Shown here: piece after piece, positions 6,162-29,312 of the stretch
Numbering within the stretch: the stretch's first letter is position 1
How the letters are laid out: each line of letters starts with the position of its first letter
Source: an uncultured Bacteroidota bacterium
GTDB taxonomy: Bacteria > Bacteroidota > Bacteroidia > Bacteroidales > WCHB1-69
Assembly: GCA_902774175.1 (NCBI GenBank)
Contig: CACYHG010000011.1
Coordinates: 1 to 45,239, forward strand
Length of the DNA stretch: 45,239 bases
Reading direction: 5' to 3'
Position numbers and translations under genes: made by a program
The notes under the pieces: model-generated
What the model saw: the letters and a program-made list of their open reading frames with translations, nothing else
Told to the model about the DNA's origin: nothing
The model's database searches: none

Positions 6162-8543
6162 CTAATACCGCAGCTGCAGCCCGATACTCAGCCGGATCCG
6201 GTTGGTGGCGTCCCACAAGGGACTTCCGTCCCCCATACGGTCGGTGAAGAGATATTGCCCATAAATGGAAAAAAACCTGTAGTTCAGCCGCAACAGCGCG
6301 GAGAAGGCAAATGGTTCCGCATTTTCCGCCCCCGTCTTGACCACAAGCCAATTCCTGCTTACCTCTTTCCCCTCCAAATCGGTTATGACCATTTCTTTTG
6401 TTTTCGATATCCAGCTGTTGCTGAAATTCCACGCCCCGATGACACCCGCATCCAAACTGATATTGGGATATAGCCGGAACCGCTGGAAATACTCCACATC
6501 CAAATGAAAACTCTGAAGCCCGGCGCAGTTCACCTTATTTCCGTCCGGATACAGCATGGCCTTCGAACCGCCAACGCCCAATCCAAGTCCGGATGCACAG
6601 AACTTGCTGATATTGTACTGGTAAAACAACCCGGCCTGCCAGTTTGGCGAGAAGCGGTATTCCCCCCTCGGCAGCGTTCCCACCGGCAGGGTCACGCCAC
6701 AACCGGCATACACGCCGACATATTGCCTGCACTTCCTCCCCCAAGCGGTGAAACGGCCCGAAGAATCCTTCATGTGATAATCGGCAATGGATTTATACCG
6801 GCTTTTCGCCACATTGGGGAAATGAACTTTCACACCTGCAAAAGTCACATCCCGATTTCTATGCGATTCACCCTCCATGGCACGGATAAGCCCCAAATTC
6901 GCCGTATCCAACGGTTCCAAAGGAAGATCCTTCGGAGCAACACTGACCGTATACCCCTTATAATGGACACATAAGGTGTCACACTGCATGGCATCGCTAT
7001 AATTGACAAAGTAATATCCCGGAAAGGCGAAATCAAGGCAGATTTGGCGGTAATAAACAATCCGTCCATCCGCACGCCGGAAGTGGTAATAGACCACATC
7101 GCCATTTTCATAGGCGGACAGGGAAAGGAAAATCCCCTTTTCATTCCTCAGGATACGGAAAGTCGGCTGCACCGCAACCTTGCCGCCGCCAACAAAAAAG
7201 GCAGCCTGCGGCACACCATAGCCCACCGCATAATCATAATAGGGATAGAGGTTCGCAGAATGTTCAATAGCCTCCTTCAACTGCATGGCGCCATATTCAG
7301 GATGGCTCTGCCATGCGCAGGCGGCGAATCCTGCCACCAGGGGAGATGAGAAAGAGGTGCCATCCGAATAGGTATATTTCTGCGGCGATGCACAGCTGGC
7401 CACACGGCAATTGCTTGCATAAGCGCACACATTGGGTTTCAGCCTCCCGTCCGCCGTAGGGCCGCAAGAGCTGAAATCGGCGTGCCAGTTGTTCTCCGGA
7501 TTGATTCCGCCCACGGTCAGCACGCTGTCGGCATCCGCAGGCAAAATTATGCCCGGCCATCTTATTTTTCCATTATCGTTTCCCGCCGAATTGCATACAA
7601 GAATCCCTTTGGCAGCCGCCATATTGGCCGCCCTGCTCATGGGGGATGTGCCGTCGGCCTCAGTCGGCCAGTGGTTGGTTTCATTCCACCCCAATGAACT
7701 GTTTACGATATTCGCACCGTTCCTTTCCGCCCATTCCAATCCCATGACCCACCAAACCTCCTCTTTTTTAGGTTCCGGCCCCACTTCGGTGCGTGCCAAC
7801 AGGAACTCGGCCTCTGTTGCCAGCCCTATGGCACAGCGGTTGGTCGCGTCCCAGCCGCCGATGCAGCCCAGTGTCATGGTGCCGTGCGAGCCCCATCCAT
7901 ACACATTCTCGCATTTTTCAGGAAAATTGTAGGTTTTGACAATTCGCCCGCTCTCCCTCAAATGACGGAACGCCTCATGCCGGTCCACCATTATAAAACC
8001 GGTTTCCAGCACTGCAATCCGCATGCCCTTGCCGCGCATGCCCGCCCTGACAAAAAGATCACCGCCCATATATTTCAGCTGCTGATGAATCTCCCCGCTG
8101 CCTTCCGGACCGACAGGCATGACAAACTCCGCCTCAGGTCCATCCATTGCACAAGGCTGCATTTCACGCTGTATTGGAACAACCCGCGACACAAAAGAGA
8201 AATGGCGTATGGCTTCAAGCGACTCAGCATCGGCCACCACGGCCAATGCATTGAGCCAGCGGCTCTCTCCAACCACCTCCAACGAAATCCGGCCCACCGC
8301 CTCCGCATAAGCGGCATTCAGCGGGTAGTCCGTGCTGTCGCATAACGGGATTCCCTGGCTGATACGTCTTTCTATAGCCTTGGCGTCAAAATAGGCATAC
8401 GGGTCAAAACTGCACCCCGACTTGTCCCTGAAAAAGACCCAACATACCTCTTGGGAAAAGAGCGGAACCGCCAGACAACAGCATACTGAAACGGCAAACA
8501 GCCGCCTTATCGCAAAAAACATCCTTACATCTTTAGTTTTCAT
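6162..8543 (-). CDS. S8 subtilase fused to a C-terminal outer-membrane beta-barrel
   Basis: A 793-residue exported protein. A signal peptide spans residues 1-30 (hydrophobic core with CCC, cleavage near FSQ). The subtilase domain covers about 170-450, with His220 (SHGT), the oxyanion Asn322 (SAGND) and Ser397 (DGTSFSSP). The position of the catalytic Asp carries Glu180 (VLETGF, codon GAA at 8004-8006). After a linker domain (450-600), residues 605-793 show about eight amphipathic strands rich in Gly and aromatics, ending in LRY, as in outer-membrane barrels. There is no T9SS sorting domain. The barrel would anchor the protein, perhaps like an autotransporter. M1 or M8 could be the start. Confidence 0.85.
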   Translation of the reverse strand: MKTKDVRMFFAIRRLFAVSVCCCLAVPLFSQEVCWVFFRDKSGCSFDPYAYFDAKAIERRISQGIPLCDSTDYPLNAAYAEAVGRISLEVVGESRWLNALAVVADAESLEAIRHFSFVSRVVPIQREMQPCAMDGPEAEFVMPVGPEGSGEIHQQLKYMGGDLFVRAGMRGKGMRIAVLETGFIMVDRHEAFRHLRESGRIVKTYNFPEKCENVYGWGSHGTMTLGCIGGWDATNRCAIGLATEAEFLLARTEVGPEPKKEEVWWVMGLEWAERNGANIVNSSLGWNETNHWPTEADGTSPMSRAANMAAAKGILVCNSAGNDNGKIRWPGIILPADADSVLTVGGINPENNWHADFSSCGPTADGRLKPNVCAYASNCRVASCASPQKYTYSDGTSFSSPLVAGFAACAWQSHPEYGAMQLKEAIEHSANLYPYYDYAVGYGVPQAAFFVGGGKVAVQPTFRILRNEKGIFLSLSAYENGDVVYYHFRRADGRIVYYRQICLDFAFPGYYFVNYSDAMQCDTLCVHYKGYTVSVAPKDLPLEPLDTANLGLIRAMEGESHRNRDVTFAGVKVHFPNVAKSRYKSIADYHMKDSSGRFTAWGRKCRQYVGVYAGCGVTLPVGTLPRGEYRFSPNWQAGLFYQYNISKFCASGLGLGVGGSKAMLYPDGNKVNCAGLQSFHLDVEYFQRFRLYPNISLDAGVIGAWNFSNSWISKTKEMVITDLEGKEVSRNWLVVKTGAENAEPFAFSALLRLNYRFFSIYGQYLFTDRMGDGSPLWDATNRIRLSIGLQLRY

Positions 8544-27007: not shown

Positions 27008-27268
27008 TCACTCCACTTTCACAAACTTCAATACCTGCACGCCGTTTTTGGAGCGGTAGCGGACAAAGTAGGTGCCGCTGCTGTAGCGGCTGGTGTTGAT
27101 ACTCATCTCCGCATCTTCCATGGTGCGGTGCAGCAACACCCGCCCTATGGCATCCGTGATAATAATTTCACCGCCCAAATCCGAGGCATCTTCATTGCGC
27201 AGCAGAATGTAATCCTGCGCCGGATTGGGCTGCAACGTAAGCGTGGTGCGTTTCGGTTCCTTGACAGC
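27008..27268 (-). repeat. Duplicated T9SS sorting-domain segment (pair of 28171-28431)
   Basis: 261 bases including the stop codon that are closely similar, without gaps, to 28171-28431. Most differences are silent third positions. It encodes the T9SS sorting domain and the VKEPKRTTLTL lead-in. Confidence 0.85.
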
Positions 27269-28021
27269 CGCTCCTGTTTGATGACATCCGGTCGGTTTGT
27301 GAAGCATGAATTCGACGGTGTCGTCCTTATGCAGACAAAGCATGAGGGGTAAATATGAATCACCAGCCAACTTTGTATATCCTATTCCATAGGAAGGGCC
27401 AACTCCTTCTATAAAGGATAGTGGCAGACCATATCTCTTGCATACCCCATCGTTATCCTCGTAAAAAATAGATTTTCTATTTAAATATTGGAAATGTATA
27501 TGTTTGACCCCATTGGCATTAAACACCGTGTCCACTATAAGGGGATATCCCCACTCATAATAATAATAATCCAGCCAATTAGGCAAAAAGTAAGATTTCG
27601 GCAAAAACGGCAACCGGAAGGTGTCTCCATTATGCAATGACATGTCGCACAGCAGCACTTCGGTGTCCAGTTCAGGATAGTACCGGTAGAGTCGTCCTAA
27701 AACGGTGTCCTCCCTCAATATCCTTGTACCCCTAATGTCAAGTTTGTAGACCTTACCATTGTATTCCTTCTCTTTTCCATTAAACTCAAATTCATGGGTA
27801 CTGGATGGTCCGATATCTATTGGTTCCCCTTCGGGGTCAAAACTTACATCCACCACATATATTGCATACACCGTTCTGTTTTTCCCAAAGAATGACATAT
27901 ACGAAGTCCGATGCGGCAGGGTGTCGGACAGACTGTCGTTGTCGGAAGCTATTGTTGTCTTTGGCGTCTGTGCCTGCAAGCAGAATGGCAGGAAGCAAAG
28001 TAAATAAAGAAGTTTTTTCAT
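27008..28021 (-). CDS. Secreted T9SS cargo protein, copy A
   Basis: A 337-residue secreted protein. A signal peptide covers residues 1-18 (LLYLLCFLPFCLQAQ). Residues 19-50 (SDNDSLSDTLPHRTSY) and the C-terminal 80 match the neighbouring copy B. The C-terminus is a type A T9SS sorting domain (LQPNPAQDYILL, then DAIGRVL, then SSGTYFVRY), which sends the protein across the outer membrane. The middle contains a DMSLHNGDTFRLP and IEGVGPSYG block but no enzyme motif. I begin at the ATG at 28021. The function is unknown. Confidence 0.85.
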   Translation of the reverse strand: MKKLLYLLCFLPFCLQAQTPKTTIASDNDSLSDTLPHRTSYMSFFGKNRTVYAIYVVDVSFDPEGEPIDIGPSSTHEFEFNGKEKEYNGKVYKLDIRGTRILREDTVLGRLYRYYPELDTEVLLCDMSLHNGDTFRLPFLPKSYFLPNWLDYYYYEWGYPLIVDTVFNANGVKHIHFQYLNRKSIFYEDNDGVCKRYGLPLSFIEGVGPSYGIGYTKLAGDSYLPLMLCLHKDDTVEFMLHKPTGCHQTGAAVKEPKRTTLTLQPNPAQDYILLRNEDASDLGGEIIITDAIGRVLLHRTMEDAEMSINTSRYSSGTYFVRYRSKNGVQVLKFVKVE

Positions 28022-28124
28022 GGCTTGAACAATTAATATACGGCACCACAGCAAACAATCTATGGCTTGCCTGTTGGTTCCGGCGGTGCCGCACAACCGG
28101 AAACGCAGGAGGAAAATGCCGCTG

Positions 28125-28170: not shown

Positions 28171-28431
28171 TCACTCCACCTTCACGAACTTCAATATCTG
28201 CACACCGTTTTTGGAACGGTAGCGGACAAAGTAGGTGCCGCTGCTGTAGCGGCTGGTGTTTATCCGCATCTCAGCCTGCTCCATGGTGCGGTGCAGCAGC
28301 ACCCGCCCGATGGCATCCGTAATGATTATTTCACCGCCCAAGTCGGAAGCATCCTCATTGCGCAGCAGAATGTAATCCTGCGCAGGATTGGGCTGCAATG
28401 TGAGCGTGGTGCGCTTCGGTTCCTTGACAGC
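28171..28431 (-). repeat. Duplicated T9SS sorting-domain segment (pair of 27008-27268)
   Basis: The second copy of the 261-base segment. A shorter similar pair also exists at the 5' ends of the two genes (about 27887-28021 and 29150-29286). Confidence 0.85.
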
Positions 28432-29286
28432 ATTATAAAACCAACCAGGACCTCCCCCTTTTCTACACCCCCATGCTGAGCTGGTCATAAAATCCAATGT
28501 GTCATCCTTATAGACACAAAGCAAAAATGGAAGTTCATCATATACGGTCGATACCCTACCTAATGGTCCACAAGTAGGACCTATTCCCTCGATGAAATAG
28601 AGTGTAAGATTATCATGCCACCAAGGTTCTGTAGCATATATGCTATTACTTTTTATCAATTCAAACCGGATTATTTTCCTGTTGTCCAAATAATATACGG
28701 AATCCACTATCCAACGACGTCCCTTTCCATTATAATTCTCAATATCAGGGAGCCGGAAAGTGTCTCCCATCATCAGCGACATATCACACCAGAGCGCTTC
28801 TATGGAATCGTTATATAGTCTGTATAACCTACCGTTAACAGTGTCCTCTCCAATAACACTCCTGTATGCATGTCCATTATATGTAAAAGTATCAGAAGCG
28901 TATTTCAAATAATATGAATTAACATACAACCAATATGACAATTTTCCATGGATTTTATTAGTTAGAATGGTATAATTAATGGTATCATCATCTAACAAAC
29001 ACGATTTTTGCTGTCTTTTGACAGCAGAAACAAATGAGCTGCTTTCCATATCGTCCAACAGTCCGGATAATTGATCCAGACTGTCCGAAACAGATGGACA
29101 AAAATTAAATTGAACCCATGAGGCCAATGTCCATACTGTCTTGTTTTTTCCGAAAAAAGACTGATACGAAGTCCGGTGCGGCAGGGTGTCGGACAGACTG
29201 TCGTTGTCGGAAACTATTGTGGTCTTTGGTGTCTGTGCCTGTAAACAAAGCGGCAGACAGAGCAATGTGAAAAGAAGTTTCTTCAT
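28171..29286 (-). CDS. Secreted T9SS cargo protein, copy B
   Basis: A 371-residue paralogue of copy A, with signal peptide (LLFTLLCLPLCLQAQ), the same N-terminal segment and almost the same type A sorting domain. The middle (about residues 60-285) is related but strongly diverged: it keeps CDMSLMMGDTFRLP, an FIEGIGPTCG block and LCVYKDDTLDFM, and has extra Cys, Trp and Gly near the sorting domain. No catalytic motif was seen. I begin at the ATG at 29286; the upstream TTG is unlikely. Perhaps a surface adhesin or binding protein. Confidence 0.85.
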   Translation of the reverse strand: MKKLLFTLLCLPLCLQAQTPKTTIVSDNDSLSDTLPHRTSYQSFFGKNKTVWTLASWVQFNFCPSVSDSLDQLSGLLDDMESSSFVSAVKRQQKSCLLDDDTINYTILTNKIHGKLSYWLYVNSYYLKYASDTFTYNGHAYRSVIGEDTVNGRLYRLYNDSIEALWCDMSLMMGDTFRLPDIENYNGKGRRWIVDSVYYLDNRKIIRFELIKSNSIYATEPWWHDNLTLYFIEGIGPTCGPLGRVSTVYDELPFLLCVYKDDTLDFMTSSAWGCRKGGGPGWFYNAVKEPKRTTLTLQPNPAQDYILLRNEDASDLGGEIIITDAIGRVLLHRTMEQAEMRINTSRYSSGTYFVRYRSKNGVQILKFVKVE

Positions 29287-29312
29287 GATAAACAATGTCA
29301 GATTTTAGTTTG

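Follow-up and report, generated by a model that had tools for sequence, protein, structure and literature searches.

A subtilase and a C-terminal barrel in one open frame

The window, i.e., the whole stretch of 45,239 nucleotides analysed here, carries on its minus strand (the strand of every window feature given below) a single open reading frame without internal stop that encodes a 793-aa fusion of a subtilase and an outer-membrane barrel (6162..8543), and the same fusion is found in relatives. The chain begins with a signal peptide of approximately residues 1–31 (8451..8543), placed from the sequence and a modelled helix at residues 3–28 and ending in AVPLFSQ before EVCW; sequence comparison shows AQ or SQ closing the signal peptide at the equivalent point in relatives. 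Residues 32–124 (8172..8450) form a putative inhibitor I9-like prodomain, assigned from the modelled order of its strands and helices; this segment returned no family match, and the prodomain-containing pro-subtilisins 3afg and 3whi are among the top fold matches of the chain. A disordered segment (residues 127–149) lies between the prodomain and the S8 peptidase domain at residues 171–443 (7215..8033), where an initial annotation of the locus had placed it at about 170–450. The domain matches PF00082 at E 1.1e-41 (143.5 bits, cut-off 21.8), which assigns the protein to peptidase family S8, and Foldseek aligns it to subtilisins with TM-scores of 0.84–0.89 normalized to the target. It is followed by a small beta domain, recognized from strands in the model (residues 462–535, 6939..7160), which has a 'YYHI..G.L..Y' region in common with the domain that also ends the proteases of relatives with a split gene pair. 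A flexible tether (residues 558–606, 6726..6872), with pLDDT below 50 at residues 558–582 and 592–599 and with length and sequence that vary greatly among relatives, leads to the predicted eight-stranded outer-membrane barrel at residues 607–792 (6168..6725).

Evidence for the barrel comes from AlphaFold2, from profile comparison with hhalign and from Foldseek searches with a homologous barrel encoded by a separate gene. The whole-chain model (36-row alignment, mean pLDDT 82) predicts strands at residues 607–620, 633–644, 649–666, 671–692, 695–721, 727–755 (interrupted), 758–765 and 783–792, mostly at pLDDT 80–95, and these eight long amphipathic strands agree with the eight-stranded outer-membrane barrel that the strand pattern of residues 605–793 had initially suggested. 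The model of a split barrel (L031; mean pLDDT 92.6) has the same strand order, and Foldseek ranks the eight-stranded OmpA, Ail and OmpX as its best matches, with OmpW and PagP further down. TM-scores against eight-stranded barrels in the PDB are modest (0.26–0.40 by query length, 0.29–0.49 by target length), owing to differences in the loops and in strand length, and they therefore support the fold class and not close kinship. All five of these proteins share the small eight-stranded outer-membrane fold, but they have no protease attached and no close sequence relation to the window barrel. Structure prediction had been proposed as a check on the C-terminal region and the whole chain, and a soluble beta-sandwich at residues 605–793 is ruled out by the AlphaFold2 models and the Foldseek matches.

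The PF13568 (OMP_b-brl_2) barrels of Bacteroidota are among the closest described families and have the barrel fold and weak profile matches in common with the present set. The window barrel itself lies below detection in a Pfam search, PF13568 included, whereas a fused C-terminus (L020) and one split barrel reach 26.6 and 26.4 bits against a gathering cut-off of 27; of the 40 split barrels, 12 match PF13568 at E <0.01, the best at 8e-10, and weak matches occur in 4 of the 36 fused proteins. What sets the present subset apart from PF13568 barrels in general is its tie to one protease. An identity with the known T9SS barrels (PorV/PorQ and others) is not supported, with only 1 of 75 barrels matching the NCBIfam models, at E 0.002. 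Single fused proteins among the 36 also match PF13620 (carboxypeptidase-regulatory-like) and SdrD_B.

Fused and split forms of a protease-barrel pair

In many relatives the two parts are encoded by two genes. The protease of the split form is about 530 aa long, with a stop after the small beta domain, and is followed on the same strand by a separate barrel gene of about 240 aa (230–250) with its own signal peptide, usually less than 100 nt downstream and sometimes overlapping. An adjacent downstream barrel gene is present at 41 split loci (median gap 10 nt). When built solely from fused C-termini, a profile picks up the downstream barrel genes with E-values of 1e-10 to 1e-39. The profiles of fused and split barrels align to each other over 197 columns with an hhalign probability of 100 (E 5.9e-39); on profile comparison, the fused and split barrels are homologous. 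The fusion of passenger and barrel, initially deduced from strand pattern, is borne out by a continuous frame, by fused relatives and by the recognition of split barrel genes from fused C-termini, and the search for homologues of the same architecture that had been suggested as a check returned fused relatives. Both parts lie in one open frame in 41 frames of the sampled loci; together with agreeing open-frame lengths across the family, this rules out an assembly artefact as the origin of the fusion. A strong match is present in 66 of 104 genomes of the window's family, and most of the corresponding open frames are long enough for the fusion, the fused state having been checked directly for a sample of loci and taken from open-frame length for the rest. 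The architecture is typical of the window's family and not unique to the species.

Several individual loci deviate in detail. One fused gene (L018:1342-3747, genome G008) has an in-frame TAA near the protease end, before the barrel, with its close relative L020 intact, and at another locus (L097 / L034, genome G028) the protease-barrel gene occupies two overlapping frames, possibly through a frameshift or an assembly error. In each of the genomes G080 and G081, a stretch of about 8.5 kb contains two fused copies, and relatives there (L094:8140-10527 and L095:2065-4440) have open frames about 900 aa long.

Protease and barrel also occur together across genomes. The protease subfamily, called at E ≤1e-70 and ≥260 bits, is present in 57 of 247 genomes of the order, and the barrel in 56, with an overlap of 52; barrels were called at >90 bits, a cut set after inspection of the list, in which a gap separates scores of about 92 or more from those of ≤77. 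Expressed by genome, the barrel accompanies the protease in 52 of 57 cases and is found in 4 of 190 genomes without it, which leaves five protease-only and four barrel-only genomes (Fisher p 1.4e-42 over the 247 genomes, a value inflated by shared ancestry). In two of the five protease-only genomes (G261, G262) the protease is located at a contig end. The pairing extends to two families elsewhere in the class, where it was found at 4 of 4 loci. For seven split proteases, no barrel lies adjacent although the downstream sequence is long enough to show one; their genomes encode a barrel elsewhere in four cases (152–244 bits), weak matches in two (68–77 bits) and none convincing in one. Members of the barrel family in genomes without a detected protease (L118–L121) have no protease beside them, and neither does an extra barrel copy (L122) in a genome with a fused gene.

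In the protease-domain tree, all fused proteins form one clade (SH-aLRT 89) that is nested among split ones and has as its sister split members of the window's own family (L023, L024). The simplest tree would invoke a single fusion event from split ancestors, one change explaining the fused versus the split state. Fused members of three other families (f3, f81, f101) fall inside the fused clade, a placement that suggests transfer or close kinship. Around the examined loci there were no conserved neighbour genes hinting at a substrate; a neighbourhood with genes resembling a GGGP synthase and a phosphatase, judged by eye from sequence, recurs in six or seven loci and is not informative.

Catalytic residues and paralogues of the window copy

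The window copy differs from its relatives at the catalytic site, a feature that the initial annotation had missed. In the alignment, the catalytic Asp position is occupied by Glu180 (GAA, 8004..8006) in the window copy alone, and all 92 aligned relatives having a residue there carry Asp. The catalytic His220 (7884..7886) and Ser397 (7353..7355) are invariant in the aligned set and the oxyanion residue Asn322 is kept, so that the window copy reads Glu180-His220-Ser397 in place of the Asp-His-Ser triad of family S8. Its activity is doubtful, and the Asp180Glu exchange may have reduced or changed it. The genome also holds three further fused paralogues, likewise overlooked at first, giving four fused barrels and no free barrel. 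The paralogue on contig C7 of this genome (G000:C7) has an intact triad and 58% identity to the window copy over residues 13–538. The other two stand in tandem (L003 and L004, G000:C41:6101-10811) and have more diverged barrels, with 15% identity to that of the window copy.

One reading of these observations makes the window copy a pseudo-enzyme, decaying or repurposed, which no longer cuts and either serves as a binder or is being lost. The restriction of Glu at this position to the window copy, the intact paralogue in the same genome and the copy's branch in the protease tree, at 0.51 the longest of a small clade whose other five members have branches of 0.014–0.25, would all fit such a fate. 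Yet His, Ser, the oxyanion Asn, the open frame and the barrel are all retained, and sedolisins use Glu in their catalytic triad, where it works. We treat the loss of cleavage as a tentative possibility that we would not favour; it is limited to the window copy and is compatible with the explanation preferred for the family, a subtilase anchored at the outer membrane. In that framework, the window gene may encode a member that has been weakened or altered, in a family that is otherwise intact.

Sorting, membrane side and proposed working

The outer membrane of Bacteroidota is unusual, and many proteases leave these bacteria via T9SS. The genome of the window encodes 74 T9SS sorting domains, in agreement with the initial description of a T9SS-positive bacterium. 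The sorting domain was correctly noted as missing from the protease: TIGR04183 has no match in the window protein, which rules out a hidden sorting domain, or in any of the 77 barrel-linked proteases scanned, of which 36 are fused and 41 split. By contrast, TIGR04183 is present in eight of ten sister subtilases, and no barrel gene lies beside those examined. Barrel and sorting domain are mutually exclusive among these subtilases; the T9SS-sorted Bacteroidales subtilases (S8 plus TIGR04183), which form the sister clade of the barrel-linked protease, have the sorting domain where the present family has the barrel.

As a usual rule, both ends of an even-stranded outer-membrane barrel lie in the periplasm. 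The protease precedes strand 1 of such a barrel and would therefore start in the periplasm. Among split barrels, the most conserved parts are the turns predicted to face the periplasm and the inner halves of the strands (1.7–2.25 bits, with the GKRGN turn at 2.25 bits); loops 2 and 4, predicted to be extracellular, are intermediate (1.4 bits), and the least conserved are loops 1 and 3 together with the outward halves of strands 5 and 6 (0.8–1.1 bits). This gradient is weak and only suggestive because outer loops of outer-membrane proteins are usually variable and loops 2 and 4 are moderately conserved. Judged from the predicted topology, the subtilase most likely sits at the periplasmic face of the outer membrane; the even-strand rule and the position of the conserved residues both argue against the surface location that had been proposed initially.

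That proposal drew on the order of an autotransporter, whose barrel would carry the subtilase to the cell surface and hold it there. The order of passenger and barrel indeed resembles that of the subtilase autotransporters of Proteobacteria (type Va; Ssp, SphB1, NalP; PF00082 plus PF03797), in which an S8 passenger precedes a C-terminal barrel in one chain. Two further points could be taken in favour of the proposal: the protein lacks a T9SS sorting domain, and its sister subtilases are T9SS cargo and hence extracellular. Eight-stranded barrels such as OmpA and OmpX are, however, too narrow for a folded or looped passenger. PF03797 was detected in 0 of the 36 fused proteins (E 0.01), and no confident lumen helix precedes strand 1, where the linker is mostly of low confidence. 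Most relatives, moreover, encode protease and barrel in two genes, as separate polypeptides with separate signal peptides, and self-transport in cis is therefore impossible for them. Type V translocators have twelve strands (PMC3297439), against eight predicted here. A classical autotransporter is rejected on the missing PF03797 and the strand count, and we regard autotransporter-like delivery in any form as unlikely. Equally improbable is a barrel that helps other machinery (BAM threading or a T9SS route independent of the sorting domain) to secrete or display the enzyme outside. In its favour, the pair takes the sorting domain's place one for one, the pattern expected of an alternative exit route; against it, the pair has no transport component linked to it, and barrel conservation lies mainly on the periplasmic face.

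In the fused protein, a narrow eight-stranded barrel quite probably serves as a covalent tether between the subtilase and the outer membrane; the gene would derive from the fusion of two adjacent genes. The ancestral parts would have been an exported subtilase and a PF13568-like barrel acting as its dedicated outer-membrane partner. A Sec signal peptide would export the chain, and BAM would insert the C-terminal barrel with its N-terminal end toward the periplasm, so that a flexible linker, about 50 residues long, would keep the protease at the inner face of the outer membrane. Once its I9-like prodomain is removed, the protease would become active and could then cut envelope or incoming proteins close to the outer membrane. 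In the split relatives, the free barrel would recruit the free protease to the same inner face, probably via its conserved periplasmic face; we infer such a physical association from the pairing. The favoured role, suggested by place and chemistry, would be to process envelope proteins near the outer membrane or to control their quality. More broadly, we lean towards a two-part envelope protease of Bacteroidota, i.e., a periplasmic subtilase with its own eight-stranded anchor, encoded by a widespread gene pair that was fused once and that replaces the T9SS sorting domain of the sister lineage, possibly for quality control or processing at the outer membrane.

Since subtilases usually count as secreted enzymes, a membrane-tethered periplasmic branch would be unexpected. 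If the account is true, holding a protease at the outer membrane by its own small barrel would be another means of positioning it in the envelope, and the coexistence of fused and split forms offers a natural test of whether both parts cooperate. The parts are known and the arrangement is new: this looks like an apparently undescribed conserved protease-barrel pair, and no description of such a pair was found in the open-licence literature, which is weak evidence of absence. For annotation, the pair is a warning that passenger-plus-barrel order alone is insufficient to call an autotransporter.

Two adjacent ORFs of the window (27011-28096 and 28174-29295, both minus) carry TIGR04183, as had been reported for two neighbours of the protease; at about 19 kb from the protease gene, they are neighbours only in a loose sense. 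Among the sister subtilases, most of them T9SS-sorted, those at L104 and L106–L109, from several families of the order, are directly followed by a gene that by eye resembles the exodeoxyribonuclease VII large subunit.
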